From positions 1 to 44,683 of the IMG/VR virus record IMGVR_UViG_3300042384_001249: a stretch of DNA of 44,683 nt; one strand, 5' to 3'. The notes below the pieces were generated by a model. That model was given only the letters and a program-made list of their open reading frames with translations. It ran no database searches and was not told the DNA's origin. This DNA comes from a virus. Positions 3,286 to 37,283 of this stretch are shown here, in pieces. The first letter of the stretch is position 1, and every line of letters starts with the position of its first letter. Made by a program: the position numbers and the translations under genes.

Positions 3286-4886
3286 TGCCCAAGAAGGCTC
3301 CCAACGCCGAGGAGAAACGCAGGTTGGCAGAGATTGCCGAGGTGGAGTCGCAGTTGGCGGCTGCCACCCGGCTTCTCCGCGTCAAGCGCGCGAGGGAGTC
3401 GCTCATCGACTTCACGTCGATGACCATGCCCGACCCGGAAGATCCGGACAATGTTGACCGCTCCAGGTACGAACCTGTGAAGCACCACGCCACGATCTGC
3501 GCGGCCTTGGAGCAGGTGGAGCGTGGAGCGTACCAGCGTCTTATCATCTCCATGCCTCCTCGACATGGTAAGTCGGAACTAGCGTCTCGCCGTTTCCCGG
3601 CGTGGTTCTTGGGCAAAGACCCATACCGCCAGGTCATCTTCGCCACCTACAACGCCGACGTGGCGCAGGACTTCGGACGTTCCGTCCGTGAAATCATGCG
3701 TTCGCCGTCGTACCGCCAGGTCTTCCCTGGGTGCAAGCTGCGGACCGGCAGCCAGTCTTCAGACAAGCTCCAGACCGAGGAAGGCGGACTAGCCAACTTC
3801 GTCGGCGTGGGTGGCGGTCTGACTGGCCGTGGTGCTGACTTGCTGGTCATCGATGACCCGATCAAGGACCGTGAGGAGGCAGACTCCAAGCGTGAGCGTG
3901 ACAAGTTGTGGGAATGGTTCACGCAAGTGGCTATGACCCGACTGATGGCCGGCGCCAGGGTGGTGATCATTATGACCCGGTGGCATGAGGATGACCTGGT
4001 TGGTCGCCTCACCGACCCGAAGAATCCCTGTTACAACGACGAAGTCGCCCAGCAATGGCGTATCCTGGCGTTGCCGGCCATCGCCGTGGACAATGACCCG
4101 ATGGAACGCCCTATCGGTCAAGCCCTATGGCCGGAGCGTTATGGCTTGGACTTCTTGAACGAAATTCGCCGCCTCAACCCCAAGGGATTCTCCGCCCTGT
4201 ACCAGGGCAAGCCTACTCCCGACGACGGCGACTTCTTCCGCCGCGACTGGCTGAAGCCTTACCCAGGCGAGATTCCAAAGAACCTCCGTTACTACTGCGT
4301 ATCTGACCATGCCGTGTCTACCGCCCAGACGGCTGACAAGACCGTGCTGATGCCCTTCGGCTTGGACGAGGAAGACAACGTGTGGATCCTGCCGGACGTG
4401 TGGTGGCGTCGCGCCAGTACCGACCAGGTCATCGATGGGATGATCGACTTGATGTCCCGCCACAAGCCGGCCAAGTGGGGTGCGGAGCGAGGGCATATCT
4501 CCCAGTCCATCGGTCCGTTCCTGCGGAAAGTCCAGCAGGAGCGAGGCATCTGGACCGTGGTGGAGGAGATTACCCCGGTAAAGGACAAGCAGACCCGCGC
4601 GCAGGCGATCCGTGGACGCATGGCAATGGGCAAGGTATTCTTCCCCAAGTTCGCCCCCTGGTGGGCAGACGCGGAGACTGAACTGCTCAAGTTCCCTTCA
4701 GCCCGACACGATGACTTCGTGGACGCTATGGGTCTGGTCGGCCTGCTCCTTGGAACGATGGTCAGCGCGACCCGGTCGTATGAAAAACCCTCTGACATCC
4801 CCAAGTCCGGCACCCTCGCATGGGTGAAGATGTCCGCCAAGTGGGAAGAGGCGCGACGCAATCTCTTGCAGATGGGCGGCTTCTGA
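3285..4886 (+). CDS. terL: Terminase large subunit
   Basis: The 533-residue packaging motor has an N-terminal ATPase and a C-terminal RNase H-like nuclease. The Walker A motif is PPRHGKS at residues 91-97, the Walker B region is LLVIDDP at 186-192, and IIMTRWHEDD at about 228-237 fits the coupling motif of this family. In the nuclease half, VSDHAVSTAQTADKT (about residue 345) carries the first acidic residue, and RHDDFVDAMG near residue 475 supplies late acidic residues. Length is normal. Its ATG shares an A with the fibre stop codon. It is unusually far from the small subunit at 38133, which sits in the replication half. It should pump DNA through the portal encoded immediately downstream. 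Confidence 0.95.
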   Translation: MPKKAPNAEEKRRLAEIAEVESQLAAATRLLRVKRARESLIDFTSMTMPDPEDPDNVDRSRYEPVKHHATICAALEQVERGAYQRLIISMPPRHGKSELASRRFPAWFLGKDPYRQVIFATYNADVAQDFGRSVREIMRSPSYRQVFPGCKLRTGSQSSDKLQTEEGGLANFVGVGGGLTGRGADLLVIDDPIKDREEADSKRERDKLWEWFTQVAMTRLMAGARVVIIMTRWHEDDLVGRLTDPKNPCYNDEVAQQWRILALPAIAVDNDPMERPIGQALWPERYGLDFLNEIRRLNPKGFSALYQGKPTPDDGDFFRRDWLKPYPGEIPKNLRYYCVSDHAVSTAQTADKTVLMPFGLDEEDNVWILPDVWWRRASTDQVIDGMIDLMSRHKPAKWGAERGHISQSIGPFLRKVQQERGIWTVVEEITPVKDKQTRAQAIRGRMAMGKVFFPKFAPWWADAETELLKFPSARHDDFVDAMGLVGLLLGTMVSATRSYEKPSDIPKSGTLAWVKMSAKWEEARRNLLQMGGF

Positions 4887-4901: not shown

Positions 4902-7001
4902 ATGGAAAACGAATACGAGATGGGGGCGATGCCTGTAGACCCGATGCAGCCCGAACCGCAGCCGGTGTCGGCCATCAAGCGTGACGCCGAGAAGCCTGGT
5001 CCTTCCCGCGCCGCCCTGGTCAAGTCCCTCATCCAGAAGGTGGAACGCGCCAAGAAGCATTGGAAGAAGTCCTTCGACCGCATGAAGGAAGACACGGACT
5101 TCTACATGGGCAAGCAATGGTCGTCGTCCGACACGGACGACCGCTACGTCGCCAACATCGTCCAGCGTCACGTCGGCCAGCGAGTCTCCGCCCTGTACGC
5201 CAAGAATCCGAAGTTCGTCGCCAAGCGACGCGAGACTCTGGACTTCGCCGCCTGGGAAGGTGATATGTCGTCATTCCAGTCCATCCAGATGTCCATGCAG
5301 AATTCGATGGCTACTGGACAGCCCATGGATCCCACGATGATCCAGACGCTCCAGGACGCCCAGCAGGGTTTTGAGCGTCGCCGTATGATGGACAAGCTGG
5401 CGAAGACACTTGAGATTGTCGCCCACTATCAGCTCCAAGATCAGCAGCCTTCCTTCAAGGGGCAGATGAAGCAGCTGGTCCGTCGCACCTGCGTGAACGG
5501 CATCGGCTACGTCAAGATCGGTTACCAGCGCACCATGGAAAAGCGTCCGGAAGACGTCGAGCGTATCACCGACATCACGGAACAGTTGACGACCCTTGAG
5601 CGTCTCGGCGCCGATAAGCAGGACGAAAAGTTCTCCGAAGACCATGCGAAGGCGGAGCAGCTCCGACTGCTACTCGCCAATCTCCAGGCCAAGCAGGACG
5701 TCATCGTCCGCGAGGGAATCGTCTTCGACTTCCCGATGTCCAGTTCCATCATCGTGGATCCCAAGTGCCGGCAGTTGTCCGGATTCGTCGGCGCTGACTG
5801 GATCGCCCAGGAATTCATCCTCGACATCGACGAGGTGAAGGAAGTCTACAAGATTGACCTTGGTAAAGAATTCACGGCCTACGAAGATAAGGGTGAAGGC
5901 GACGACAAGTGCGAGAAGGCTACGGTGTGGGAAATTTATTCCAAGAAGGACGGACTAGTGTACGTCGTTTGCGACGGCTACCATGACTTCCTCAAGGAAC
6001 CGGAAGCCCCCACCCTTGAACTTGAACGCTTCTGGCCGTTCTTCCCGCTGATCTTCAACGAGGTTGACTCCGACAAGGACGTCATCCCTCCGTCCGACGT
6101 CCGCCTGCTGATGCCGGTGCAGAAGGAATACAACCGCGCGCGACAGGCTTTGCGCGAGCATCGGTTCGCCAACCGCCCCCTCTACGCCACCTACGAAGGT
6201 GCCTTGTCCGAGAAGGACATCAATAACCTCCAGGCTCACCCCGCCAACGCGGTCATCAAACTCCAGAACCTGTCTCCCGGCCAGGCCGTCAACTCCATCC
6301 TCCAGCCGGTTCAGCACGCCCCAATCGACCCAAGCCTGTACGATACGTCCATGCTCCTGGACGACATGATGCGTGTCGTCGGCAGCCAGGAAGCCAACCT
6401 TGGCGGTACGTCCGCGTCTACCGCCACGGAAGTATCTGTCGCAGAAGGTAGCCGTATGTCCAGCCTGTCGTCCAACGTGGATGACCTTGAGGACTTCCTC
6501 GGCGAACTGGCCCGCGCGACCGGCCATGTGCTGCTCGTCCAGATGGATCAGCAGACGGTGATGAAGATCGCCGGTCCTGGCGCCGTCTGGCCGCAGCTCA
6601 CCGCCAGCGAAGTCGCCCAGGAGCTGATGCTAGAAGTCGAAGCCGGCTCCAACGGTCGCCCCAACAAGGCCATCCAGATTCAGAACTTTGAGCGTATCGC
6701 CCCAATCCTGCTCCAGATCCCAGGCATGAATCCCGAATTCATGGCGAAGGAAGCCCTCAAACGCATGGACGATGGCATGGACATCACGGATGCGATCCGT
6801 GCAGCCTTGCCGTCCATCGTCGCCATGAACGCCCAGAAGCAGCTCGCCCAAGGCGATCCTGCCTCTGACCCGAACATGCAGGGTGCCGCCGGTGCGACTA
6901 ACGTCGCTCCCGCTCCCGGCGCGCCTGGTGCGGACGGTCCGACCGCTCCCGCATCGCCGGCCGACATCCGGTCGCAAGGCGTCCAGTACCCCAACGCTTG
7001 A
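4902..7001 (+). CDS. Portal protein
   Basis: This 699-residue protein sits directly after terL and before the scaffold and capsid genes, the standard place for a podovirus portal. The early region KRAKKHWKKSFDRMKEDTDFYMGKQW, read over residues about 48-72, and YVANIVQRHVGQRVSALYAKNPKF (about 84-107) match the opening of head-tail connector proteins of short-tailed phages. A central DPKCRQLSGFVGADWIAQEF segment and a helical region with SAEGSRMSSLSSNVDDL-like composition (about 510-530, STATEVSVAEGSRMSSLSSN) follow. The Pro/Ala/Gly-rich C-terminus (last 45 residues) is likely disordered. It should form the dodecameric ring at the unique vertex. It is large for a T7-type portal (about 536 residues) but in the range of related phages. 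Confidence 0.85.
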   Translation: MENEYEMGAMPVDPMQPEPQPVSAIKRDAEKPGPSRAALVKSLIQKVERAKKHWKKSFDRMKEDTDFYMGKQWSSSDTDDRYVANIVQRHVGQRVSALYAKNPKFVAKRRETLDFAAWEGDMSSFQSIQMSMQNSMATGQPMDPTMIQTLQDAQQGFERRRMMDKLAKTLEIVAHYQLQDQQPSFKGQMKQLVRRTCVNGIGYVKIGYQRTMEKRPEDVERITDITEQLTTLERLGADKQDEKFSEDHAKAEQLRLLLANLQAKQDVIVREGIVFDFPMSSSIIVDPKCRQLSGFVGADWIAQEFILDIDEVKEVYKIDLGKEFTAYEDKGEGDDKCEKATVWEIYSKKDGLVYVVCDGYHDFLKEPEAPTLELERFWPFFPLIFNEVDSDKDVIPPSDVRLLMPVQKEYNRARQALREHRFANRPLYATYEGALSEKDINNLQAHPANAVIKLQNLSPGQAVNSILQPVQHAPIDPSLYDTSMLLDDMMRVVGSQEANLGGTSASTATEVSVAEGSRMSSLSSNVDDLEDFLGELARATGHVLLVQMDQQTVMKIAGPGAVWPQLTASEVAQELMLEVEAGSNGRPNKAIQIQNFERIAPILLQIPGMNPEFMAKEALKRMDDGMDITDAIRAALPSIVAMNAQKQLAQGDPASDPNMQGAAGATNVAPAPGAPGADGPTAPASPADIRSQGVQYPNA

Positions 7002-10207: not shown

Positions 10208-12868
10208 ATGGCATATATCGTCGTCGAGAACTTTTCAGCCGGCCTCGACACGCGGAGGCATCCCCTCACGGCTCGCCCAGGTACGCTCCAGACTCTGAAG
10301 AACGCCCACGTCTCGCGTGGGGGCGAAATTGAGAAGCGTAAGACTTTCGAGGCAATCAACTACGTCAACCCTGTCACATTCACTAGGCCGTTCCACGGCC
10401 TACAAGCTACGGCTGACAAGATCTATACCTTCACGGACGGATGGAATCACAATACTGGAAGTAACGAACTTCCTGTCGATCAATATGGCGTGTACGCTAT
10501 GCTTCTCAAGCATCCAAGCGTAACCCTTTGGTCTATCCCTGGTGATCGCCCAACCCTTGAAGGAATCGTCTACAGCACCCTGTACGGAGGTAAGACCTTT
10601 GTCCTGGCAAAGTGGAGTACCGGAGAGGTTATCCCATACTTTGACGGAGAGTTTATTTCTGACTTCTATGTCGGAAAGACGCGCGACTGGATGGCTAGTG
10701 CCTCTAATCCTTGGGATGTCTTTTGTGCTACCTTGGCTTGGCAGATCCGTGGTGGCAGTTACGGACTAACCACGACTGGATGGGATTCTGACAACTCCAA
10801 CATTCTTTATGGTGGAAACAGTTGGGTCGATTTGATCGCCCCTGCTGACGTTGACTTCACGCCTTCGTTCACGACTGAAGCAGGCGTATCCGTATCGACT
10901 TCCACGATTACGGAATTTAAGGCCGGCACAGCCGCAACAAAGGCTTCTGGTGGATTCTCCATCGTGTCTGGTACGCTTGGCACTCCGGCTTCCGCCACCC
11001 GCGCGCTTCAGTATGTCGGCGCGCTTGGTGCCGCAAAGATTATGAACATCTACTTCGATGAGCAGGAAGGCATCGATGAACCTGGAGGCTGGACTGGATT
11101 TGACGCCACAGGTTTCGCCAACACTTCCACCGGACTAGTAAGCCGAATTACTTACTACCTTACCAACTACAAGCGAAACAGAGACGGACTGGCTGATACT
11201 CCTGTCGGAGCTGCAATCGAATCGTATGCCTATCCGCGTAGACAGCCGGCCATCGGATACATCAAACTGTTCGTGCCTAACACTAGCGGCACTTACTTCG
11301 ACGATCACGCCGCCAACAATGGCAAGGACATCGAGATTGAGTTTGCCGCCGACCCTTCTTCGGTGCCTGGTATCAGCCAACTGATTGACGTCAGCACCAT
11401 CGCTCCTAGCGGTTTCAATGCCGGCCGGTGGACGGCGAAGTTCGCTTCTATGGCCGGCGGAGTCACCAATGCCGTCAGCCAAGTCCTGGTAGATGGCGTC
11501 GATGTTCTTGGTTCTCCTATGAAGTGGACTGGTTCTCACTCCATCACGATGACCAACATCGTAGACCAGATTAACACATTTAATTCCTCCCCGGAATATA
11601 CTGCGTCCTACGCCAACGACAAGATCACGCTTACTTCTGTCAACACAGGTGCTGACCAGAACGGACGAGTCGTCGAACTGAAGGTCATCGGCAACATCGG
11701 TTCGTCCGGCTACTCTTCATTTACCGGAGGTGCTGACGCCGTCCCTGCCGTCCGCAAGCGCGTAAGATTCAGTATCGGCGGCGGTGCTACCTTCACGTCG
11801 AACAAGAGCGTCACGCTGATCGCCACCAAGGCTTTGGATTCTTCCAATCCTGTGTACTTCGGCGCTACCCGCGTGACGGACACTATCCCTACGTCTGCAC
11901 TTACCTACAAGACCAAGGCTCACGTCGGCAGCGGATCTAGCCTGTTCTTCTCCGGAGTAAACAACCCGAAGAAGTGGGGACAGGACGGAGTCGGCGCCGG
12001 CTTCATCAACATGTCCAACAGCTCTGGTGGCAATGAAGTCATCACGGCTGTGTCTCTGTACCAAGGTAACCTGGCGGCCTTCAGCCGTCGCACGGTGCAA
12101 ATCTGGAGCATTGATACAGACCCTGCCAACAACCGCCAAGGCCAGGTGTTGTCCAACACCGGGGCGTTTGGTCCGCGTAGCGTCGTGTCTGTCGGTGATC
12201 TAGACGTATTCTACCTGTCCGACTCCGGAGTACGCTCCCTTCGCGCGCGAGACAGCTCTAACGCCGCCGTCGTCAACGATGTCGGTACGCCAATCGACAA
12301 CCTAATCTTGGCTGAAATCAGCGGTATGACTTTCGACCAGAAGGCTTCATGCCCTGCGGTCATCGAACCTATCGACGGACGCTACTGGGTAGCCATCGGA
12401 GACAAGATCTACGTCTACTCGTACTTCCCTAGCAGCCAAGTCGCCGCCTGGTCCACCTACGAACCTGGACATACCTTCACGGACTTCACTACCAAGGACG
12501 GCAAGGTCTACGCCAAGGAAGGCCAGTACGTCTACGTCTACGGCGGACTGGATGGTAATTCCTATGACGACGACGAAGTCGAAGTCATCCTGCCCTACCT
12601 TGACGGCGGCAAGCCCGCGCACATGAAGACCCTCATGGGTCTGGACATGACCTGCGAAGGCGAGTGGGCGGTTGAAATCGGTATGGATCCTATCAGCCCG
12701 GACGCCCGCGACCTAGTCGCCACGGTCAGCCAGCCTACCTTCACCCTTGGCCGCATCCAGGCTACCGGGATGGGGACGCACGTCGGCGTCCGTATGGTCA
12801 ACCAGTCTGCCGGCTACGCTCGGATTGCCAACCTCATCACCCACTTCGACTTCAATGAAAGTGACTGA
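10208..12868 (+). CDS. Tail tube protein B-like tail nozzle
   Basis: The 886-residue protein begins with a signature of gp12-type nozzles, VENFSAGLDTRRHPLTARP (residues about 5-23), then a LKNAHVSRGGEIEKRKTFE segment. The middle is long and beta-rich with Ig-like or insertion-like stretches (about 240-560). The C-terminal third returns to nozzle-like features: YQGNLAAFSRRTVQIWSID, GPRSVVSVGDLDVFYLSDSG and RYWVAIGDKIYVYSYFPSS, which suggest beta-propeller blades. It should form the hexameric distal tube through which DNA leaves. Codon usage is more A/T-tolerant than in the replication genes. It overlaps the next gene by 14 bases. Confidence 0.85.
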   Translation: MAYIVVENFSAGLDTRRHPLTARPGTLQTLKNAHVSRGGEIEKRKTFEAINYVNPVTFTRPFHGLQATADKIYTFTDGWNHNTGSNELPVDQYGVYAMLLKHPSVTLWSIPGDRPTLEGIVYSTLYGGKTFVLAKWSTGEVIPYFDGEFISDFYVGKTRDWMASASNPWDVFCATLAWQIRGGSYGLTTTGWDSDNSNILYGGNSWVDLIAPADVDFTPSFTTEAGVSVSTSTITEFKAGTAATKASGGFSIVSGTLGTPASATRALQYVGALGAAKIMNIYFDEQEGIDEPGGWTGFDATGFANTSTGLVSRITYYLTNYKRNRDGLADTPVGAAIESYAYPRRQPAIGYIKLFVPNTSGTYFDDHAANNGKDIEIEFAADPSSVPGISQLIDVSTIAPSGFNAGRWTAKFASMAGGVTNAVSQVLVDGVDVLGSPMKWTGSHSITMTNIVDQINTFNSSPEYTASYANDKITLTSVNTGADQNGRVVELKVIGNIGSSGYSSFTGGADAVPAVRKRVRFSIGGGATFTSNKSVTLIATKALDSSNPVYFGATRVTDTIPTSALTYKTKAHVGSGSSLFFSGVNNPKKWGQDGVGAGFINMSNSSGGNEVITAVSLYQGNLAAFSRRTVQIWSIDTDPANNRQGQVLSNTGAFGPRSVVSVGDLDVFYLSDSGVRSLRARDSSNAAVVNDVGTPIDNLILAEISGMTFDQKASCPAVIEPIDGRYWVAIGDKIYVYSYFPSSQVAAWSTYEPGHTFTDFTTKDGKVYAKEGQYVYVYGGLDGNSYDDDEVEVILPYLDGGKPAHMKTLMGLDMTCEGEWAVEIGMDPISPDARDLVATVSQPTFTLGRIQATGMGTHVGVRMVNQSAGYARIANLITHFDFNESD

Positions 12869-13344: not shown

Positions 13345-13644
13345 ATGTGTACCCCTGTAACCAGCGGAGGCGGCTTCAAGATGCTTGGAGATATGATCCA
13401 AGAGGGTAAGCGCGTCCGTGACGAATCGTACACGAACGCATTTATGTCTCCCAGGGGAGATGCCGGCATCCAGAAGCAGGCTCAACAGCCCACCCCATCC
13501 AGGTTTCAAATCGGCACTCTTTCTAATCCTATGGGCAACGCTATGGTCGGCATGGCAATCGCCAAGAACAACCCCAGCGCATTCGCCAACGGACCTATCA
13601 AAGTGAATACTTCTAATCAACAGACCGGGAGGGTCATCTCCTAA
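13345..13644 (+). CDS. Met-Cys virion protein 1, unknown
   Basis: This 99-residue protein starts MCTPVTSGGG at 13345; the longer upstream frame is a shadow of the GNAT-like gene. It is Gly/Asn/Gln-rich and probably flexible. It is the first of four consecutive genes whose products all begin Met-Cys (13345, 13644, 14270, 14755). Its stop shares bases with the next ATG (TAATG). Its place among internal core genes suggests a virion component, but no family is recognised. Confidence 0.65.
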   Translation: MCTPVTSGGGFKMLGDMIQEGKRVRDESYTNAFMSPRGDAGIQKQAQQPTPSRFQIGTLSNPMGNAMVGMAIAKNNPSAFANGPIKVNTSNQQTGRVIS

Positions 13645-14264
13645 TGTGCTTCGGCGGAGGAGGCGGTGACGGCGGTGCAGCCCAGGCGCGCGCTGACGAG
13701 CAGGCGCGTCAAGCCCGCATCAAGCAGGGCGTTGGACGGATCAACGAACAGTTCAACCAGTTCGACGACAGTTTCTACCAGGGTCGTAAGGACGCCTATA
13801 AGAACTTCGCAGCCCCCCAGGTCAATGACGCCTATAAGCAGGTCAGCGATCAGTTGGCATTCAGCCTAGCCCGCACCGGCCTTGACCAGTCCAGCGAAGC
13901 CGCCCGACAGCAGGGTGTACTGATGCGCGACAACGCCCTCGCTCGCCAGGGTCTTGCCGAAGGTGCGACGACTGAAGCCACCAAGGCTCGCCAGGCCGTC
14001 GAAGACCAGCGCAACGCCCTCATCCAGCAGGTCAACATGACCAGCGATCCGGAGATGGCCGCCCAGAATGCCCTCCGCTCTGCCGGCATTCTGGAGCAAC
14101 AGCAGGCTTTCAACCCAGTCGCCAACTTGTTCGCAAACACCACCGGCATGCTCGGTGCTGCACAGAATTCTGGCTACTACTCCGGCGGTCCTGGTCTGAA
14201 GCCGTTCCGAGAATTCGTCGGTCTTGGATCTAACAAAGACAACCGAGTTGTTCAAAGCCGATAA
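13644..14264 (+). CDS. Met-Cys virion protein 2, internal core candidate
   Basis: The 206-residue protein begins MCFGGGGGDGGAAQ, continues with a long helical region (ARADEQARQARIKQGVGRIN and SDQLAFSLARTGLDQSSEAA), and ends in a Gly/Phe-rich tail. Ala/Gln-rich helices after a glycine stretch resemble the ejected core proteins of short-tailed phages, which are helical and lack secretion signals. Met-Cys followed by glycines could expose an N-terminal Cys after Met removal. It is coupled to the previous gene by a one-base overlap. Confidence 0.65.
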   Translation: MCFGGGGGDGGAAQARADEQARQARIKQGVGRINEQFNQFDDSFYQGRKDAYKNFAAPQVNDAYKQVSDQLAFSLARTGLDQSSEAARQQGVLMRDNALARQGLAEGATTEATKARQAVEDQRNALIQQVNMTSDPEMAAQNALRSAGILEQQQAFNPVANLFANTTGMLGAAQNSGYYSGGPGLKPFREFVGLGSNKDNRVVQSR

Positions 14265-15626: not shown

Positions 15627-17015
15627 ATGGCTGATACCGTAAATGTTCAAGGCGACCCTCTGTGGGGCAAAGGACTTAACAGCATCGCTGGAATGTTCGA
15701 CCCGAAGGCTGAAGCCCAGGGTGCGTCCGTGCTTGCCACCACTCGTTACAACAACGCAAAGGCCGCCGGCGTCGAAGACCAGAACAACGCCTTGAGCGAC
15801 GCATACCTTGCTGCCGCCGGCTATTCCCCGGCAGAGATTGCCGCCGCGCGCGCTACGCGAGACAACTCGCTGGCTTCCTTCGGTAGGGGCATCAATGAGT
15901 TTCGCGGTCGTGAAGCCCTCATCAAGGGCGACACCAAGGTAGCCCTTCCGCTCCTTGGACAGGCAAACGCCTACGATGATTACACCAAGGGCGAAATGGT
16001 CCGCCGTCTTACCACCAACCCGGACGGCACCCTCAATATGACCTTTGCCCCTGCCCTGGCTGCCGGCGTCACCACTAGCGGTGGCGTCATCACCCAGCTT
16101 GGAGAAGACGGCAAGTTCAAGATCATCGACACGACTCCTGCCGGCAAGGTTGACCTGGGTCGAATCAAAACGGATAAGGCGGAGTCTGAAGCCAAGATCA
16201 AACTGATGGGGACGAGGGAAACCAATTTGGGTCGCCTTACGGACGCCCAGATTGCCCTGCTCAAGTCGAAGGGTGTTGCTGTTGAGTATCTTACCGAAGC
16301 AAAGGTCGGCGCCATTGAGAATGCGGCTAATAACGCTACCGCTGAAAGCGAAGCCAGAATCGCCCTTACTAACCTTACTGGCGAAGAACGCACCAGGCTT
16401 ACGAACGCACAGATTGCTCGCCTACAGGGTCTGACTAACACGGACAAGTTGAAGGCCGACGCAGAAGCTGCCCGCGCCAACCTCAACGACCAGGCGAAGC
16501 AACTGACCGTACGCAAGGGGATCGAGGATATCTACGCCAAGGACTTCGCCGAGAACCTTGGAACGGCAAACGCATGGGAGCAGGTAGATCCTGCCCAGAA
16601 GAAGTCCCTCACGGATCGTGCCATGCAGTACATCCTGCGAGACAAGCTGGACGTCATGGCGGCCATGAGGAAGTCCGAGGCTGACCATAAGATTACCGGA
16701 AGCATGGTTAAGGGCAAGAAGGACGTCTTCTGGGGCTTGAAACAGAGCGACAACGGAAAGATCAGCTTTGAAGGATTTACGGTTCCCGAAGCCTTGGCCG
16801 ATGTCGTAGCCAGCGGTGCGGCCCCTACTAGTACGCCCGCCGCCCCTGTCATTGCTCCGGCTGCCGGGGCTGCTCCTGCGGCCGCCGCCGCGCCTGCCGT
16901 AACAGCCGACACCCCTAGGATTACCGACGATGCGGCCGGCCGAGAGGCTTGGGGTAAGCTTGCTCCAGGTACTGTTTATGTTGCTCCAGATGGAAGCGTC
17001 CGTACAAAGGAGTAA
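15627..17015 (+). CDS. Internal virion protein, gp15-position
   Basis: This 462-residue protein sits where T7-type phages encode gp15, the middle component of the ejectosome. It begins NVQGDPLWGKGLNSIAGMFD, is helical throughout the first 390 residues (AADQ/N-rich with KADAEAARANLNDQAKQL), and has a Pro/Ala-rich linker (about residues 395-430, APAAGAAPAAAAAPAV) before a short C-terminal domain ending AWGKLAPGTVYVAPDGSVRT. That last motif is common at the ends of phage virion proteins. The Pro/Ala linker resembles those of the giant protein next to it. TAATG coupling to the next gene, with an AAAGGAG Shine-Dalgarno-like sequence just before. Confidence 0.65.
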   Translation: MADTVNVQGDPLWGKGLNSIAGMFDPKAEAQGASVLATTRYNNAKAAGVEDQNNALSDAYLAAAGYSPAEIAAARATRDNSLASFGRGINEFRGREALIKGDTKVALPLLGQANAYDDYTKGEMVRRLTTNPDGTLNMTFAPALAAGVTTSGGVITQLGEDGKFKIIDTTPAGKVDLGRIKTDKAESEAKIKLMGTRETNLGRLTDAQIALLKSKGVAVEYLTEAKVGAIENAANNATAESEARIALTNLTGEERTRLTNAQIARLQGLTNTDKLKADAEAARANLNDQAKQLTVRKGIEDIYAKDFAENLGTANAWEQVDPAQKKSLTDRAMQYILRDKLDVMAAMRKSEADHKITGSMVKGKKDVFWGLKQSDNGKISFEGFTVPEALADVVASGAAPTSTPAAPVIAPAAGAAPAAAAAPAVTADTPRITDDAAGREAWGKLAPGTVYVAPDGSVRTKE

Positions 17016-20000
17016 TGAGCAATTTCTGGGAAAACGACAAGCCAGTACAGCCCAAGCAAGACACCAAACCGAAAGTTAACTTTTGGGAGCAGGACAAGCC
17101 TGCCGACGTCCCTGCCCCTGTCGTAACCCAGCAGCCTGTAGTCCAGGTCGAGACGCAGGCGCCGGTCGTCGCCGCTCCGTCGGTCGCCGATGCGTTCAAA
17201 CTGGCGACGCCGAACGATCCTCAACTGACAGCCCCTGGGGCAGGCGTGTTGCTCCCCCAGCCGCAGATGCGAGGCGTCGGCGGTGGTGTACGCCAACTCG
17301 GCCAGTCCCTTAACGCGGACGCTCCGGTCGTCGGACAATGGGAAAGCCTGTTCAACTCCGCTTTGTCGTCCTGGTACGGCAAAGACATGGCTGCGGCGGA
17401 GAACAACTTCTTCAACCTGGTATCCAGAGAGTCTGAACTGGTTGAAAAAATTACCAACTTCACGCCAATGGGTTACGACCTTCCTGGCCCTCTGCCTCCT
17501 GGTGCGCCGGAATCAGCCCGACAAACAGTAAAGAATCAAGACGTGAAGGCGCTTGAAAAATTGAAGCAGGAACTTGTCGAAGTCCGCGCAAAAATCCCGC
17601 TCGCAAAGGCGGAGAAGGACGAGATGGAAAAGACGATGGCTGGCATTGCCGGCCGAACCGAAGACGTTCTGCGATTCCAGAAGGCAGCCAACGCCCAAGA
17701 CATCGGCGGAGCTGCTCGCGTACTGAAGGGAGACTACGGAACGAATTCCGCAGAAGTCGCCATTAACATGGCTTTGGAATCCGCATGGCCTAGCCTCAAG
17801 AGTGCAGGCATCGACGTCGGCAAGGCCGGCGTCACCTACGCGACTGGCGGAGCAGCCGCTCCTTGGGTTTATGGTGGCGGTATTGCCGCCCAAGGCGGTA
17901 TGGCCGGACGAGACGCCTACGTCGGCAACGCATCGCAGAATTTCAAGGAATGGCTTCAGACCCAGGGCGTTGACGCGGATGACGAAGCAGCCGTCATCGC
18001 CCTTCGCAACAAAGACCCGAAGGCTTTCAACCAGGCTTTGTCTGACGCGAAGCAAATCGCCCTTGCAGCCGCCGGCGCCGAAGGTGCGGTGACTGGTGGC
18101 TTCAGCATGATCCCAGGCGCTGGAAGCATCAAGGCTATCGGTAAGAATAAGGGCGTTCAATGGGTCATCAAGAATGGCGTACCTCTGCTCATCGAGGCTG
18201 CCAAAGAAGGTGCCGAAGAAGCTGTCGTCAGCGCGGCGTCACAGGGTGCTGGCATTGCCGCTGGATCGAAGAAGCCGTTCAGCATGACCGACGTAGCCTT
18301 CGCCGGTACTGGTGGCTTCTTGGCCGGCGGCGCAAGCGACGTTGGCATGAAGGCTGGTGGTGGCGTCTTTAAGGCTGGGTGGAAGGCTGCTAGTGGGAAC
18401 AAGCCTGCCGCCCCTGTTGCTCCTGCCCCTGGTGCGACCCAGCCTCCGCCTGCTGCTCCGGCTCCAGCAGCCGGTGGCGCCGCCGCCGCTCCTGCAACCA
18501 ATGTTGCCGGCGAAGTCGTCCCTCCCGCCCCCGCCGCCGCTACCGCCGCCCCGGCTGCTCCCGCCGCCGCTGCTGCTGCCGCTCCGGCCGCACCAGCTGC
18601 CGCTCCTGCCGCTCCGACCGTCGATCCTACCATCGCCCTCCAGGAGCAACTGAATTCAGCCAATGAGCGACTGTCTAAAGCCCAGGCAAACGAAGCCCAG
18701 GCAAACTTTGACTTTGAGGCTGCCAAGGCGGCATTGGATGACGATCCGGAAAACCAAGAAAAACAGGCCGCACTAAATGCCGCATCGAATGCGGTCGTTG
18801 CTGCTCTTGCCGAACAAGGCAAAGCATACGGAGATATCTCTTCGCTAACCCAGCAGCTTGAGGAAGCTTCAGCTGCTTATAACGAAGCGCAGAAGAACGC
18901 CCCTCCCGCCCCTGCCGCCCCTGCCGCACCTGCCGCACCTGCCGCTCCTGCCGCCCCTGCCGCTCCTGCCGCCGCCCCTGCCGCAGCTCCGGCCGCCAAC
19001 GCCCAGCCGAAGAACGTACTGGAGCAGAGGTTTGATGAACTTAACGAGAAGATCCGTTTCATCAAAGCAGAGTTGACCAGAAAGAAGGCCGAGGTTGACG
19101 CCGCCGCCAAGGCCGGCCGGCCGAACGCTGAAGGCCGCGCCAGCGTCCAGCGTCTTGAGAAAAGCCTGTCCGACGCCGAAGGTACGTTGAAGGATCTGAA
19201 GGATCGCAACGCTCCCAGGTCTGAACTTCCCGCTCCCCAGAAGGAAAAGACTCCGGAAGAGAATCTAGCACAGAAGAAGGCAGAACTAGACGCGATTAAT
19301 CGACAGCTCGACCAGGCTTACCGAAGCCAGCGAGACGTCGATGGCGAACGCATTGCGTTGCTTGAGGCTGAACAGGAACGTATCTCGGAAGAATACGAAG
19401 TCGCACGCGCTGCCGTCGAAGGTAACGCGACAGCGTCCGCTCCGGATACTACTCCTCCCGCCGGCACCGACGGATCGGCTGCATCAAATAATGAACCGCA
19501 AGGCGTCAAGGACGCCCGCGCGCAACTCAAGAAGATGGAAGACTCCGGTCGTGCCGGCAGTCGCCAGGCCAAGCTTCGACGAAAGTATATCCGCGAGTGG
19601 GAAAGGAAGAATGGTCTTCCCTACAGCGTCGAACTTGAAGCCCCGAAGCCGGCAAAGCCTGCCCCGGTTGCGAAGCCTGCTGCCCCTGTCGCGGACGTAC
19701 CGCCGGCTGATGCTCCTGCTGCTGACGCACCTGCCGCACCGGTCGTAGCTACTGCTGCCCCCGCTGCCGCTGCTCCAGCCGCAGCCCCTGCTGCTCCGGT
19801 CGTAGCTGCTGACGCCCCTGCCGCAGCCCCTGTCGCCAAGGCTGACGCTGGAGCAGCTCCGGCAGCCACCACTACTACCGCCCCTGCCCCGAAGCCGAAG
19901 TCTGACCTGGTTACCGGCCTACGCGGTGCAGCTGCCGCCCTCGCCGGCCGCGAGCGTTCCAACGCCCCCGCCCCGACCGTAGCCCCCTCCGGCAATGTCA

Positions 20001-23000
20001 ACGCCAGCGACCCTCGCAATGATCGCCGCTACGCCGGTCTTCGACAGCTTCTGCGAAGTGCTATCAACGTAGCACACAACAAGATCATCAACGACGAGAA
20101 GGCCCGCGAGAAACTTATCCAGGAAGGTCGCTCGACCAGGAACCTGGATGACCGCATCGCCCAGAACAAGGAGAAGATTGAACGCATCCTTTCCGGCCAG
20201 CCGGCAGTAAAGCCTAACACTCCGGTAGATCCGAACGTCGCGCCTATCGACCCGATGGCCGCAGACCAGCAGTACGACTACGACGATACTCCTGCCACTC
20301 CGGAACAGTTGAGCATCCTGGACAAACTTGATGCGGCTGGTGATGAAGCTATTGCGCTTGGACGCAAGGAAATCGAAGAAGGCAGAAGCGGAGCTGGTCG
20401 AGGCGCCTTGGGCGGCCAGTCTTTGAGCGGACGGATCAATATCGGTGTTGGTTATGGATATAAGTTCGCAGCAAAGCTTGGTAAGAAAGCTAACCTTAAA
20501 AACAAGGCCGCAGCTTTGGCTGAATTCGTGAAGATGTTCGGCGAATCTTCTGAAATCTATTTCGATGCCGCCTATGAAACGGCGAAGAAGCTGCTTGGTA
20601 AGAACTATTTCGAGACTACCAATAACATTAACAAAGACGTCATCTCAAAAGCCGACGCCGACCTGGCCGCCTCTAGGCCAGAAGCAAGTACGGCACGCGA
20701 AGTGGAAGCGTCTTACGTCCGTGAAGCAGGCGTATTTGCACTCCGAAATCTTGATAAGAAAGCTAAAAATAAGGAAGCTGCCAGCGATTCTGCTTTCAAG
20801 AAATGGATGGATACCGATCCGTTTGGCGACGCTCCGCAGTACGTCAAGGATAACGCCCGCGCAATCTGGGACAAAGCAGTAGCCCTTGGCGGTAGAAATG
20901 AAGCAGAAGTAACTACCAATGTGATGCGAGACGTCACCGGAAGAGACGTAGACGATGGAAAAATGTCAAAGGAGGAAAAGGCAAAGATGGACGCACTTCG
21001 CGCAAAAATCGAATCCCCATCCCTTCGTCGTCACTTTGACGATGCGCTTTCCGGGCTTACCCCGGAAGAGCGTGCGCGAATCAAATCTAACACAGCCACC
21101 GGCCTGGCCGAAGCTACGGCAGCCCTGCCGAATGTTGATCAGACGGCCGCCGCGGCAGCAGCCGGCAAGGCGAAGAAGAAGTGGTACTGGCGTTCTGCCG
21201 AAGCAATTAAGCTTATCTTCGGCAAGGATCGTCACCGATTCGCAGCCCTGCTCGCAGCCCTTTCTCCGCAGACAAGCGTTGAGGCTAATCTTGAAAATAC
21301 GCTCCGCGTGTGGCGCACTTGGGTCAATGAAGGACGTCCTACTGACGAGGCTTCGATCCTTCGCATCATGGGCAAGTCTGTGATTGGCGATAAGGGCGAG
21401 GATTCGGTGCTGGACGCTTGGAAGAATAATTCAATCCGCGCGCTGTCTTCTACGGAACCGGAAAACCTTACTATTTCCGGACCGAAGGTGAACAGCTTCT
21501 CAATGAATCTGCGGCACATCTTCACCGCAGTAACGGCTGACGCATGGATGGCTAACTGGGCATACGTTGACCAGGCCATCTTCGGCGGAGGTATCAATGC
21601 TGCCGGCACGGACCCGGGCAAGGGCATGGGTTACCTTGCGATGACGTCGCTTTGTCGCCGGGCAGCCGAAAAGCTAACCATGGAGACAGGCCAATCCTGG
21701 ACTCCGGACCAGGTACAGGAAACGGTTTGGTCTTGGGCCAAGACTGTCCTTGAGAAGGCTGTCGCCGAAGGCAAGACGGTGCAGGAGGTGGTAAGCCAGG
21801 GTCTTGTTAATGATAATGACATTGCATCGACCCCGGATTTCGCCACTCTATTTACAGATGATCCCAAATACAGACAGCTCCTCGAAGAATCCGGCTACGC
21901 CGACCAGCTCAAACAACTCGACGAAAAGCGGGTACAAGGTCAAGAGCAGCGAGGAACTGCGTCCGATGGCGGCGCAGGATCTGGTGGAGAGCGGAAAGTA
22001 CGAGAACTTGGAGGAAGCAATCCAAGCACTCCGGGAATCCGGGTTCTAGAAAATACTCCGGAAAACCGTAAGCTGTTTGCTGATCTAGTAAGCAAACTAC
22101 AGGCAGGTAACCCGCGCGGCGCCCAGGTTACGGCCAAGACGGCAGATGAATATGAAGGCCACACGATGGTCATCGCTTTCGACGGAGAAGCCGTAGGTTC
22201 TATTTCTCCGGAAGGCGAAACTACCAGCCTAGTTGCAAGACCAGACGCTCGGCCGGAAGCGGTGCAGGTTCTTTTCCAAGCCGCAATCGATACCGGAAGG
22301 GTTAAGTTCTGTTCGTGCTTTGATACTATTCTTCCGGAATCCTACGCAAGACGTGGCTTTGAGGCTGTTGCCAGAGTTGCTTTCGACGAGAAATTCGCTC
22401 CAGAAAATTGGGACACCGAGACATACGAGCGATTCAATAACGCGAAGCCCGACATTATCTTCATGCGGTTCGTCGGTGATAATGCAAGGCCGCACTCCGA
22501 AGTTCGTGCAAACTTGCCTGTACTCGATTACGCAGCCGCAGAAGACGCGGCAAAGAGAGGAATAAGCGCCGAGCAAGCAGCATCAGAGAAACAAAGCCGC
22601 GCCGAAGAAAAGTTTAAGCCGGAACTCAAGGAGTCCATCGACCGACTGGAAAGGGAGCGAATCTCTAGAAAGATTTCAGCGGCAGACACCCAGCTGAAAA
22701 AGATGATCGAAACGCTGAAGTCGCTCAACAAGGCCATCAAGAAGGCGAAGTCTGAAGGCAATACCGAGCTGATGAATGAACTTGAGAAGCAGGCTGAAAA
22801 GACGCGCGAGCAGATTAAATCCAGGGAATCAAAGAATGAAAAGCAGGTCGAAAGGGAGCTGAAAGAACTTCGTAACCAGCCTGCCGAGAATACGGAAACA
22901 AAAGCCGATGCCGGCCAACAGGCTTCCGAAGCAGGATCTGACGCGACCGTAAAGGGTTGGGCTGATACCGTCGCTCGCGCGCAGCGCGACAAGCCGGAGT

Positions 23001-26000
23001 CTGCCATGCTGGACGCACAGAAGGTCGTCAAAGGCGGAGCCGCGAATTACGCGATCGAGCATATTGGTGACATCCTTCACCGGGTTTACCAACGATTGGC
23101 CCAGTCCGGAGACGATCCTAGCTTCGGCTTCAATGGCGTAAAAAACAAGGTGGAGAACGCCTTGAAAAACCTAATCGGAGACAACATCACAACGGAGGCT
23201 GATTTCTGGGCCAAGGAAAAGGAACAGCACGGCATGGAAGTAGCCAGCGGAAAGCCTGGCGTTCCTTCATGGGAACAGCGTAAGCAGGAAATCACCGATA
23301 AGATGAAGCGGTTTTCAGAAGAGCATGCCGCCCTGCCGGCGGAGAATGATCTGCAAGCCACCGTCAAGGGTATCAATGTCGCCCTTGGCAACCTGGACTT
23401 CCAGGCCGCCATCGACGGTCTGAACAAACTCAAGCAGAAGCTTGATTCGCAGGAGTCTTGGAGGAACTACGCCAAGGAAGTCGGAACTAACACCGAAAAT
23501 AAAGCCGGCGAAAAGGCGCAAAGTACTTCCCAAGAACCGCGCGAATCAAGGGAAGCTGCCAAGGTCCGCATCGAGCTGGAAGAAGCCGCAAAGGGCGATC
23601 CTGCTACACTCGGTGAGCGTATCAAGAATGCGTTGGACGCATGGGAATTGGATTCCCTAGGGCCGGACGATAAGCCTAACGCCAGGGCGTTCTCGTTCGG
23701 ACCTAACGAACTTGCGGCCTGGGGCTATCGTATCGCCAAGCTGATTGCGAAGACTGGCATGAAGTTCGCCTCATGGGCGAAGAGCATGGCCGGCAAGATG
23801 AACAAGCAGAACATGAAGGATATCTGGCAGATCGCCAAGGCGATCGTCCGATTCCCCGGAGCAATCGCCAAGCACTTCCTGGACAGCCGCGCCGACAAGC
23901 TGTGGGAATACGCTAACAAGCGAAAGGATTCCGCCGCCATGCGTAAGCTTGCCAACCTTATCTTCACCCGATCCGGACCGGACGCGGACGCCGAAATTAC
24001 TACCACCGGACCGGACGGCAAGCCTGTGACTGAAGCGGTTCGCAATTCGATTCCGCAGCGTATCAAGCAGATCCGCACCCAGTACGCGAACAAGTACGCC
24101 AACATGCTCAACCGATTCGGTACTGAATTCGCCAACATGACCGAAGCCCAGCGTAAGGCTTGGGACAAGGAATTCCGTCGTGCCGTCATCGGCCTTGACC
24201 CTCTACCTCCTGGAGAGAAGGGCAAGGCAGTCCTTGAATTCCGACAGATGATGAAGGAGCTGCTGGATTACCAGCGCGAAGCCGGCATCGACATCGGCGA
24301 TTCCGGAACTGGATACTTCCCGCGAATCTGGTCCAGTAAGCTGATCCAGGAGAACATCCAGAAGTTCTACCAGGTCGCCAAGGAGATGTATAAGAAGCGC
24401 GACCAGCGACTGCTCGACAAGGCCATCGCTGATATCAACGCCGGCGTCGATCAGAATGCCGCAGACAAGAAGGCCAGGGACAAGAAGTATGGTCGTAAGA
24501 TCAAGACGGACGCCGAGTACCAGCAGGAAGCCAGGGATGACGCCGATGAGAAGATCGCCGCCTTGCAGGCTGCACATGACGCCAAGGACGAAGCCCACTA
24601 CCAGTCCATGGCGGAGTCTTGGGCGTTGCGCGCGCAGACCGGTCGTCTCGACGAAGTCACTCTGAATGACAACGGCATCAACCAGGCCAACGCTCCGGAC
24701 CATGCTGACCCTCGCATGTTCACGGACGAAGAGGCTTCCCTTGCCGACGAATTCCAGGACGACGACATCGATAAGACCGTCATCCGCTACGTCCACGCTG
24801 CCGTAAAGAAATCCGAACTTGCCCGCGTGTTCGGTGAAAAGGGAGATAAGTTCGGCAAGATGCTTGAGCAGCTACAGAAAGACGGATTCTCCGAAGAGGA
24901 GATCAAGCATATCGCCAAGCTGACACGCCAGTCGCTCGACGTAACCTCCAATAAGCTTGAAGGGTTTGAAGCCAAGTTCATGGACTGGGCTAACTTCGTC
25001 GTCGTATCTGGTTACCTTGGGTTGAGCTACATCAACAATCTCTTCCTTGAACCTGTTTCGTACGGTATCCGTACCGGAAGCCCTGCTCTTGCGCTTGAGG
25101 CTGTGGTGCGTACTTGGCACCAGTTCGGCCGCGAGCTTCTGCGATCGGTCAACGACTCAAACTTCATCCGCAGGAAATACAAGAACCGAAAGGAATTCGC
25201 CAGGTCCATGGACATGGCTTTGGCGGAGACTCTCGGCCTTACCCACGTCGAACTTGATCGTATCGCCGCAGACAGCCATTGGGACTTCAATGCCGACATG
25301 GAGGAATCCGGCAGCCCCCTCGCCAAGTGGCTTACCCAGCGTGTGCTGAAGGCCAACTTCATGGAGCAGTCCGAACGCGCGAAGGTTGCCGCCTCCATGG
25401 CTATCGCCAAGGGCCATCTCTCAAACGTCGCACGCACGTTCAACGGAAACTCGTTCCTACAGGAAGTGTTCTCCAAGGCCGGAGTCGATGTGACGGCAGA
25501 AGCTGCGGCAAAGTCGATGCTCCGCGAAGCCGGCGTGGCAGACGCTGATCATGCTGCGTTCGTAGCCTTCGTCACCTCCCTACAGGCGATGAGCGACTCC
25601 GACTATGAGGCAGCCGTGATGGGCAACAGCCGAGAAGCCAAAATGTACCGCCAGGCACTCCAGCGTACCAGCACCGGAATGGCTATCAGTACGGACCCTT
25701 CGATGAAGACCGAAGGATCTGACAGTATCTTCGGCAAGATGCTCATGCAGCTGATGAACTACTCCTACGCCTACTCGCAGTTGGTGAAGGATCGTATGTA
25801 CGACAGCGCGCTCGGTGCGTTCAAGCGTTCTACGCCGACCGAACAGATCAACGCGATGGATCGCGTGAAGTACTTGATGCCATTGGTGGCGGGAGGTTCG
25901 ATGACCGTTATCGCGTCGATCGCCACCAAGGCTTTGGTTGCCTCCGTGTTCCCATCCGACTCCGGAGACGAGTGGATGGAGAAGGATCCGGCAATCCAAT

Positions 26001-26341
26001 TCCTGGACGCAGCTTCCTACGCCGGCATGTTCGGCAAGAAGTTTGAATACCTGTCCCGCATGGTCATCCGTAAGCAGGTGCCTATGGGTCCGATTCCGGA
26101 AGCCGCAGGGAAGGCTATCATCGCCGCGTCTACCGCCATTGAAAAGGGTGGTGACTCCGATCGTGCTAACTACAACGCGTTGAAGTCAGTCCAGCGGACC
26201 GGCTTGAATCCGGCCGTGGTTGGTGCCGCTTCGGCATTCAACCCTGTTGTGGGTGCCGGGGCTAACTACCTCATGCGCGACCGAGACTACAGCGACGCGA
26301 TCCTTGAGGGTCTGACTGGCACCACTAAACCCAAGAAGTAA
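17015..26341 (+). CDS. Giant multidomain ejected virion protein (polyvalent, gp16-like C-terminus)
   Basis: This 3,108-residue protein fills 21% of the genome. Order: two FWENDKP/FWEQDKP motifs (residues 3-30); a Gly/Ala-rich, possibly membrane-active region (250-450); three Pro/Ala-rich linkers (about 463-540, 628-665, 882-992) separated by coiled coils; an HhH-GPD-like domain (about 1386-1620) with ALLAALSPQTSVEANLENTL and SGPKVNSFSMNL, followed by VTADAW carrying a possible catalytic Asp; a GNAT-like domain (about 1673-1826) with RRGFEAVARVAFDEKFAPEN; long coiled coils to about 2200; then a core (2225-3108) with YFPRIWSSKLI (about 2432), FMDWANFVVVSGYLGLSYIN (about 2655) and a hydrophobic segment near 2953-2982, as in large ejected proteins. 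It is likely packaged and injected with DNA. No lysozyme or transglycosylase motif was found in it. Domain names are motif-level calls. Confidence 0.75.
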   Translation: MSNFWENDKPVQPKQDTKPKVNFWEQDKPADVPAPVVTQQPVVQVETQAPVVAAPSVADAFKLATPNDPQLTAPGAGVLLPQPQMRGVGGGVRQLGQSLNADAPVVGQWESLFNSALSSWYGKDMAAAENNFFNLVSRESELVEKITNFTPMGYDLPGPLPPGAPESARQTVKNQDVKALEKLKQELVEVRAKIPLAKAEKDEMEKTMAGIAGRTEDVLRFQKAANAQDIGGAARVLKGDYGTNSAEVAINMALESAWPSLKSAGIDVGKAGVTYATGGAAAPWVYGGGIAAQGGMAGRDAYVGNASQNFKEWLQTQGVDADDEAAVIALRNKDPKAFNQALSDAKQIALAAAGAEGAVTGGFSMIPGAGSIKAIGKNKGVQWVIKNGVPLLIEAAKEGAEEAVVSAASQGAGIAAGSKKPFSMTDVAFAGTGGFLAGGASDVGMKAGGGVFKAGWKAASGNKPAAPVAPAPGATQPPPAAPAPAAGGAAAAPATNVAGEVVPPAPAAATAAPAAPAAAAAAAPAAPAAAPAAPTVDPTIALQEQLNSANERLSKAQANEAQANFDFEAAKAALDDDPENQEKQAALNAASNAVVAALAEQGKAYGDISSLTQQLEEASAAYNEAQKNAPPAPAAPAAPAAPAAPAAPAAPAAAPAAAPAANAQPKNVLEQRFDELNEKIRFIKAELTRKKAEVDAAAKAGRPNAEGRASVQRLEKSLSDAEGTLKDLKDRNAPRSELPAPQKEKTPEENLAQKKAELDAINRQLDQAYRSQRDVDGERIALLEAEQERISEEYEVARAAVEGNATASAPDTTPPAGTDGSAASNNEPQGVKDARAQLKKMEDSGRAGSRQAKLRRKYIREWERKNGLPYSVELEAPKPAKPAPVAKPAAPVADVPPADAPAADAPAAPVVATAAPAAAAPAAAPAAPVVAADAPAAAPVAKADAGAAPAATTTTAPAPKPKSDLVTGLRGAAAALAGRERSNAPAPTVAPSGNVNASDPRNDRRYAGLRQLLRSAINVAHNKIINDEKAREKLIQEGRSTRNLDDRIAQNKEKIERILSGQPAVKPNTPVDPNVAPIDPMAADQQYDYDDTPATPEQLSILDKLDAAGDEAIALGRKEIEEGRSGAGRGALGGQSLSGRINIGVGYGYKFAAKLGKKANLKNKAAALAEFVKMFGESSEIYFDAAYETAKKLLGKNYFETTNNINKDVISKADADLAASRPEASTAREVEASYVREAGVFALRNLDKKAKNKEAASDSAFKKWMDTDPFGDAPQYVKDNARAIWDKAVALGGRNEAEVTTNVMRDVTGRDVDDGKMSKEEKAKMDALRAKIESPSLRRHFDDALSGLTPEERARIKSNTATGLAEATAALPNVDQTAAAAAAGKAKKKWYWRSAEAIKLIFGKDRHRFAALLAALSPQTSVEANLENTLRVWRTWVNEGRPTDEASILRIMGKSVIGDKGEDSVLDAWKNNSIRALSSTEPENLTISGPKVNSFSMNLRHIFTAVTADAWMANWAYVDQAIFGGGINAAGTDPGKGMGYLAMTSLCRRAAEKLTMETGQSWTPDQVQETVWSWAKTVLEKAVAEGKTVQEVVSQGLVNDNDIASTPDFATLFTDDPKYRQLLEESGYADQLKQLDEKRVQGQEQRGTASDGGAGSGGERKVRELGGSNPSTPGIRVLENTPENRKLFADLVSKLQAGNPRGAQVTAKTADEYEGHTMVIAFDGEAVGSISPEGETTSLVARPDARPEAVQVLFQAAIDTGRVKFCSCFDTILPESYARRGFEAVARVAFDEKFAPENWDTETYERFNNAKPDIIFMRFVGDNARPHSEVRANLPVLDYAAAEDAAKRGISAEQAASEKQSRAEEKFKPELKESIDRLERERISRKISAADTQLKKMIETLKSLNKAIKKAKSEGNTELMNELEKQAEKTREQIKSRESKNEKQVERELKELRNQPAENTETKADAGQQASEAGSDATVKGWADTVARAQRDKPESAMLDAQKVVKGGAANYAIEHIGDILHRVYQRLAQSGDDPSFGFNGVKNKVENALKNLIGDNITTEADFWAKEKEQHGMEVASGKPGVPSWEQRKQEITDKMKRFSEEHAALPAENDLQATVKGINVALGNLDFQAAIDGLNKLKQKLDSQESWRNYAKEVGTNTENKAGEKAQSTSQEPRESREAAKVRIELEEAAKGDPATLGERIKNALDAWELDSLGPDDKPNARAFSFGPNELAAWGYRIAKLIAKTGMKFASWAKSMAGKMNKQNMKDIWQIAKAIVRFPGAIAKHFLDSRADKLWEYANKRKDSAAMRKLANLIFTRSGPDADAEITTTGPDGKPVTEAVRNSIPQRIKQIRTQYANKYANMLNRFGTEFANMTEAQRKAWDKEFRRAVIGLDPLPPGEKGKAVLEFRQMMKELLDYQREAGIDIGDSGTGYFPRIWSSKLIQENIQKFYQVAKEMYKKRDQRLLDKAIADINAGVDQNAADKKARDKKYGRKIKTDAEYQQEARDDADEKIAALQAAHDAKDEAHYQSMAESWALRAQTGRLDEVTLNDNGINQANAPDHADPRMFTDEEASLADEFQDDDIDKTVIRYVHAAVKKSELARVFGEKGDKFGKMLEQLQKDGFSEEEIKHIAKLTRQSLDVTSNKLEGFEAKFMDWANFVVVSGYLGLSYINNLFLEPVSYGIRTGSPALALEAVVRTWHQFGRELLRSVNDSNFIRRKYKNRKEFARSMDMALAETLGLTHVELDRIAADSHWDFNADMEESGSPLAKWLTQRVLKANFMEQSERAKVAASMAIAKGHLSNVARTFNGNSFLQEVFSKAGVDVTAEAAAKSMLREAGVADADHAAFVAFVTSLQAMSDSDYEAAVMGNSREAKMYRQALQRTSTGMAISTDPSMKTEGSDSIFGKMLMQLMNYSYAYSQLVKDRMYDSALGAFKRSTPTEQINAMDRVKYLMPLVAGGSMTVIASIATKALVASVFPSDSGDEWMEKDPAIQFLDAASYAGMFGKKFEYLSRMVIRKQVPMGPIPEAAGKAIIAASTAIEKGGDSDRANYNALKSVQRTGLNPAVVGAASAFNPVVGAGANYLMRDRDYSDAILEGLTGTTKPKK

Positions 26342-37252: not shown

Positions 37253-37283
37253 GCGGTCAGCTTCGGTGTCCCAACCCACCGAT

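Follow-up and report, generated by a model that had tools for sequence, protein, structure and literature searches.

A predicted DNA-glycosylase-fold domain paired with a GNAT-fold domain in a giant, probably ejected polyvalent protein of a podovirus-like phage

The stretch of DNA analysed here, hereafter the window, is a 44,683-bp virus record (IMG/VR IMGVR_UViG_3300042384_001249). At 17015..26341 (+) it carries a single open reading frame (ORF) of 3,108 amino acids, with an ATG start and AAAGGAG just upstream, whose product is predicted to be an ejected polyvalent protein. Read directly from the sequence, this giant begins with a tandem motif, NFWENDKP / NFWEQDKP (residues 3-10 and 22-29; 17021..17101, +), and contains Pro/Ala-rich low-complexity linkers and coiled segments at about residues 461-1028 (18395..20098, +). 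Two domains follow: an HhH-GPD-fold domain of the DUF7178 family, recognised by a Pfam match, predicted structure and conservation (residues 1372-1609; 21128..21841, +), and a GNAT-fold domain with a degenerate acetyl-CoA loop, recognised by predicted structure and alignment (residues 1672-1823; 22028..22483, +). A C-terminal region (residues 2300-2619; 23912..24871, +) is homologous, by hhalign comparison, to the giant protein of Microcystis phage Mae-Yong1326-1. In the predicted structure the first of the two domains is an HhH-GPD DNA-glycosylase fold, closest to the archaeal-type OGG2 8-oxoguanine glycosylases, an assignment that holds for the fold and the catalytic residues.

The DUF7178 (PF23802) match covers residues of about 1372-1609 with E 8e-10 and 39.4 bits against a cut-off of 27; it is visible only when the segment is given alone, the whole-protein Pfam scan having missed both the glycosylase and the GNAT domains. 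The same segment matches phrog_3842 (E 1.6e-7), and in mycobacteriophages the proteins of the DUF7178 family carry the annotation “glycosylase” or “N-glycosylase”. The model, built on 21 sequences (alignment A3), is all-helical, with a predicted local distance difference test score (pLDDT) of 87.0 and a predicted template modelling score (pTM) of 0.86. Its top three PDB matches in VIA-align are OGG2 enzymes: 3knt (Z 10.8 over 178 residues, 3.7 A), 3n0u (10.8) and 3fhg (10.3). Behind them come a queuine salvage enzyme, MagIII, endonuclease III and AGOG, and the series runs on through others to a phage 5-PmdU glycinyltransferase at Z 5.6. All 15 entries at Z of at least 5.6 we take, in part from their titles, to have the DNA-glycosylase fold, including the queuine salvage enzyme 7ugk and the DNA-base transferase 8z2n; the first unrelated chain, a lyase, appears below them at Z 4.6. 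The OGG2 enzymes of M. jannaschii, T. maritima and S. solfataricus share with the window domain, besides this best structural match, a Lys-Asp pair and, by eye, a tryptophan-bearing C-terminal helix, but their sequence identity to it is 8-11%, and two residues past the aspartate the window has W where they have H. Sequence searches of the PDB returned nothing useful, and a DNA-level search in phages gave no match. Two AI-designed TIM barrels that appeared in the PDB sequence search (E below 0.001, about 42 residues) were taken as chance.

The candidate catalytic residues of the domain are K1491, within SGPK (21485..21487, +), and D1509, within VTADAW (21539..21541, +). Both are invariant in the 21 aligned relatives of A3, and a lysine and an aspartate are likewise present in 80 of 80 further loci, 76 of them recognised by a GPK pattern followed by D and four carrying GAK or GNK; these 80 were examined out of 150 loci confirmed when viral contigs were scanned with a broader protein alignment, some lying on contigs already used. 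A first scan of viral contigs with poorer patterns had yielded two relatives. Twelve positions are invariant in A3, including W1390, Y1391, S1417, N1425, K1491, F1495, N1498, T1507, D1509 and W1511. The motif LSPQTSVEA (residues 1416-1424; 21260..21286, +), which precedes N1425, stands at the position of LSxQT in endonuclease III-type enzymes and was likened by eye to TILSQNTSDRN of two comparison sequences, L113 and L114; around it, S1417, V1422 and N1425 occur in all 21 sequences. A Lys and Asp pair is used by bifunctional glycosylases with apurinic/apyrimidinic (AP) lyase activity and supplies the catalytic residues of endonuclease III and OGG2. The spacing between the two residues is 18 both in the window and in the endonuclease III-like L114, and one more (19) in the OGG-like L112 and L115.

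Comparison of the window with its relative L002 shows how strongly this domain is held. Amino-acid identity is 92.1% in the glycosylase domain and 32-75% in eight other segments, and the ratio of nonsynonymous to synonymous substitution rates (dN/dS) is 0.026 against 0.086-0.485, with dS in the domain at about 1.8, near saturation. The glycosylase domain is the most constrained part of the giant. Purifying selection of this strength is better explained by a chemical substrate that stays the same, such as a damaged base, than by an arms race with a host protein, and it may be compatible with a host DNA target too.

The GNAT-like segment matches phrog_2563 (E 0.0017), and its model reaches a pLDDT of 85.5 and a pTM of 0.76. 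Foldseek finds 1yr0 at E 1.8e-4, the first 18 rows being acyltransferases, and the best VIA match is RimI (Z 11.8, 131 residues, 2.9 A). None of the 26 aligned members has Q/RxxGxG/A after strand 4, which we take to be the standard acetyl-CoA loop of GNAT enzymes. The solo protein BroPlease gp74 reads RVKGRGA, and the wider GNAT-like family thus has the loop. Position 1767 is S in the window and in L002 and D in the other 24 members, and Y1777, presumably the equivalent of the RimI catalytic tyrosine before GF, is kept in all 26. Because the loop is missing and the acidic residue at 1767 is lost, we call the domain GNAT-fold without claiming an acetyltransferase; judged by its residues, acetyltransferase activity is doubtful, and in this lineage the domain is probably not a normal acetyltransferase.

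A preceding sequence-only reading had placed an HhH-GPD-like segment at residues 1386-1620 and a GNAT-like segment at 1673-1826. The former is borne out by the DUF7178 match and by the glycosylase-fold model with its structural match over 1372-1609, the latter, as a fold, by phrog_2563 and the model over 1672-1823. Its DNA-glycosylase label holds at the level of fold and catalytic residues, and its acetyltransferase label is weakened by the degenerate loop. Of the checks it had proposed, structure prediction shows both folds; the hhalign comparisons of the glycosylase domain with glycosylase sequences, given below, were not significant.

The giant closes a block of virion genes that comprises the terminase large subunit (3285..4886, +; family match), a P22-like portal protein (4902..7001, +; Pfam P22_portal E 1.1e-6), a scaffold-like protein, the major head protein, an adaptor, a homologue of a “packaged DNA stabilization protein” recognised by comparing relatives (10208..12868, +), small proteins and a 462-residue protein. 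Mae-Yong1326-1 (L118) has the same gene order, with terminase, portal and major capsid protein 49.5%, 45.6% and 45.8% identical, and in the slot of the giant it has a 2,441-residue protein annotated “peptidoglycan transglycosylase”. The two giants share, besides this slot, Pro/Ala-rich stretches and a homologous C-terminus (hhalign E 3.9e-7, probability 92.8), whereas the Mae-Yong1326-1 protein carries LPD1 and gives no DUF7178 match at E 0.01. One of the small proteins of the ejection block (206 residues; 13644..14264, +) has homologues in Mae-Yong1326-1, Rhizobium phage RHph_N65 (L119) and L002 at 33.8-66.5% identity, and a gene in this region of RHph_N65 is named “putative injection protein”. 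The 462-residue ORF directly upstream (15627..17015, +), which overlaps the start of the giant by one base and is 44% identical in L002, had no family match in the scans and is, by position, a candidate second ejection protein.

The shared slot and the homologous C-terminus support an ejected protein, and the window polypeptide combines two unrelated folds in one ORF at a virion-gene position; the phage would be podovirus-like and the polypeptide a polyvalent ejection protein, probably carried in the head and brought into the cell with the DNA. The sequence-only reading had proposed a polyvalent, virion-packaged protein, and this is well supported, as far as sequence comparison reaches, by gene position, C-terminal homology, the LPD domains of relatives and the fusions of GNAT-like domains to minor capsid proteins described below. 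It had also seen no muralytic domain, in agreement with the Pfam and PHROG scans, which found no lytic family in the giant; in the lack of a detected N-terminal muralytic domain the protein differs from T7 gp16. Its gp16-like label for the C-terminus is supported indirectly, by homology to the syntenic Mae-Yong1326-1 giant and not by a significant likeness to T7 gp16 itself.

Some further features of these blocks were observed. Giants in the same slot begin with a doubled short aromatic/acidic motif (NFWENDKP/NFWEQDKP in the window, NPFDELV/NPFDALV in L002, DPWAVV twice at L118:18409), possibly a packaging or docking signal. The stabilization-protein homologue at 10208-12868 has 886 residues, with an insert of a few hundred residues relative to those of RHph_N65 (587) and Mae-Yong1326-1 (465). 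Solo genes annotated as N-acetyl- or N-acyltransferases lie within the ejection blocks of Mae-Yong1326-1 (L118:15191-15682) and RHph_N65 (L119:5473-5919), the latter matching Pfam Acetyltransf_1. Elsewhere in the window, a 191-residue ORF (37146-37721) looks lysozyme- or transglycosylase-like by eye (VEQVESSGRG) and has no Pfam or PHROG match.

The glycosylase-fold domain recurs in the giant proteins of numerous uncultured phages. Among 33 viral records, 28 pass the DUF7178 cut-off, all of them in frames of 1,423-4,090 residues, and in seven an LPD38 match falls in a frame whose length is that of the glycosylase-bearing ORF; P22_portal was found in two (one above the cut-off), so the relatives are not all of the window's phage type. 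Among the BFVD structures that match the glycosylase model are some with the names “ART-PolyVal-like” and “Large polyvalent protein associated”. In the cultivated Limnohabitans phage DC33 a 3,125-residue protein combines LPD22, ART-PolyVal, the glycosylase domain and a GNAT-like domain. DC33 (L003, PQ492659.1) is filed under Inoviridae; its 39-kb genome and its polyvalent protein look tailed-phage-like.

A query with the GNAT-like domain recovered 59 ORFs, of which 39 have at least 450 residues upstream; in 38 of these 39 the glycosylase domain is present, each time N-terminal to the GNAT-like one, although many are near-identical and two of the three query-alignment sequences came from proteins with both domains. 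Counted as lineages (60% clusters), the glycosylase domain accompanies the GNAT-like domain in 7 of 17, or in seven of the eight with room for it. From the glycosylase side (158 sequences, some from the same contigs), the GNAT-like domain is present in 9 of 12 lineages with room. Judged from these sequences, the pairing is frequent and, since the largest lineage, which holds the window's sister, has the GNAT-like domain in only 9 of its 61 sequences (50 with room), not obligatory. GNAT-like domains of this family also occur in other virion-protein contexts, fused to the minor capsid families VG15 (Microbacterium phage Caron gp4), Phage_Mu_F (L095) and Phage_min_cap2 (L101); no glycosylase domain was found in these fusion ORFs.

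Several single loci vary the arrangement. Haloarcula tailed virus 2 (HATV-2; L108:3974-5080) encodes a solo GNAT-like gp117 and, after a gap of 63 bases, gp118, which bears the annotation endonuclease III (PF22175 E 0.0013, below the cut-off), an adjacency that is at most suggestive of the same pairing as separate genes. A 1,174-residue ORF (L096:5554-9075) joins GNAT-like, NUDIX and topoisomerase IB domains. A contig of a Chloroflexi metagenome-assembled genome (MAG; L104:5307-13865) encodes a giant with the glycosylase domain and no GNAT-like match, in which a HEVAH stretch after the glycosylase domain looks zincin-like by eye and a HEMGH stretch lies further on. On a Nitriliruptoraceae MAG contig (L105:114-2885) the DUF7178-bearing ORF is broken by one in-frame TAG.

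Polyvalent phage proteins with GNAT domains have been described (Iyer et al. 2017, PMC5512222, in the sections consulted) and are mentioned again in passages of PMC7824862. The window protein resembles those of the former account in being a giant multidomain protein among virion genes with a GNAT-like domain, and its relatives carry LPD22, LPD38 and ART-PolyVal; it differs in having no LPD domain detected in Pfam scans, and the word “glycosylase” is not in the main text of PMC5512222. In the part of the literature searched, no study describing a DNA-glycosylase domain within a polyvalent or ejected phage protein came up, nor any paper naming DUF7178. The mycobacteriophage DUF7178 proteins Pocahontas gp86 and Kumao gp115 belong to the same family and share the P-K-x-x-S-F-x-x-N and V-T-x-D-x-W motifs, but they are solo genes of about 200 residues, whereas the window domain is embedded in a 3,108-residue protein in an ejection slot.

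From the open frame, folds, conserved residues, selection, gene position and recurrence, as given by sequence and prediction, we infer packaging, ejection, catalysis and substrate as follows. The giant would be packaged in the head and enter the cell together with the phage DNA, with the HhH-GPD domain seated between a Pro/Ala-linked N-terminal half and a C-terminal region of ejection type. That domain, perhaps with AP-lyase activity, would act ahead of transcription and replication, flipping out a damaged or modified base and excising it, most likely from the phage DNA that has just come in; the GNAT-fold domain, a recurrent partner, may bind a ligand or support the glycosylase. Since a substrate of constant chemistry speaks for work on the incoming DNA soon after entry more than for attack on a host target that varies, our best guess is early DNA processing rather than acetylation of host proteins. 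Taken as a whole, an ejected polyvalent protein that carries a DNA glycosylase acting on incoming DNA is the account we lean towards, by a little over even chances.

A number of results weigh against this account. Foldseek alone finds no significant PDB match for the glycosylase domain at a cut-off of E 0.001, the VIA alignments re-examine Foldseek's own list, and a Z near 11 is below the level that the tool's note deems safe for helical bundles. Comparisons by hhalign with OGG- and endonuclease III-like sequences are not significant (E 0.11-0.25), with the best alignment in each placing K on K and D on D; the GNAT-like segment, used as a control against the same glycosylase profile, is also not significant (E 0.48). 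The window C-terminus gave no significant profile match to T7 gp16 (hhalign probability 0.3, E 0.22). Finally, ADDT, a related fold, also has a GxK...D pair by eye, so that the Lys/Asp pair is no proof of glycosylase chemistry.

The main rival chemistry is that of ADDT, an amino acid:DNA transferase of the HhH fold: the domain would be an ADDT-like DNA-base transferase, as in Pseudomonas phage PaMx11, with the GNAT-fold domain acetylating its product. In thymidine hypermodification, adjacent genes for HhH-fold and GNAT proteins are believed to act in this way. PaMx11 gp46 (ADDT, PF18724) and gp48 (GNAT) lie two genes apart, and the list of structural matches contains the enzyme of PaMx11, 8z2n, but at Z 5.6 it is far surpassed by OGG2 at 10.8. 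Moreover, the window segment matches DUF7178 only, unlike gp46, which matches ADDT; the local profiles match neither gp46 nor gp48; no thymidylate-synthase homologue is present in the 44.7-kb record, which may be a fragment; and a protein of the virion would exert its effect once DNA has been made, not while it is being made. We consider this route improbable. Somewhat less improbable, though still unlikely, is that the ejected domain is turned against DNA of the host or of a rival, excising, for instance, bases that the host or resident phages have modified and leaving abasic sites and breaks. Polyvalent proteins are thought to hit host targets early (PMC5512222, in the sections consulted), and the domain retains catalytic-type residues; the very low dN/dS suggests a constant substrate, however, and nothing shows how the phage DNA would be spared.

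With much the same low likelihood, neither domain would be an enzyme: old enzyme folds would have been put to new use, in binding DNA or as components of the ejection machinery. The GNAT-fold domain speaks for this, its acetyl-CoA loop being degenerate in 26 of 26 members and S1767 replacing the aspartate of 24, but the glycosylase K and D are kept in all sequences examined, within the most constrained segment. That the giant is an intracellular enzyme merely located in the late region, and no virion protein, seems very improbable, given a C-terminus homologous to that of the Mae-Yong1326-1 giant and the same slot as last gene of the series terminase large subunit, portal, scaffold, major capsid protein, adaptor, stabilization protein, small proteins and giant.

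Returning to an ejected glycosylase, it is tempting to speculate, as a tentative idea that we hold less likely than the account for this protein itself, that a ready-made enzyme for base excision enters the cell with the DNA of some tailed phages. The glycosylase-fold domain and its GNAT-like neighbour would then act as a single module, delivered by the virion, that recognises and removes a chemically altered base in the first moments of infection; within it the GNAT-like domain would serve as a dedicated sensor or partner. The module would either free the packaged genome from lesions or disarm DNA whose modifications are defensive or those of a rival.

These observations give DUF7178, a Pfam family without assigned function, a predicted fold and a testable chemistry, and show that this DNA-glycosylase fold recurs in giant phage proteins that are presumed to be injected, while the accompanying GNAT-fold domain should not be called an acetyltransferase without proof. 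If the domain is active, base excision could start ahead of any phage gene expression, and the handling of DNA lesions or modifications would join the known repertoire of injected phage enzymes. Some phages may thus bring a DNA base-removing enzyme along instead of making one after entry.

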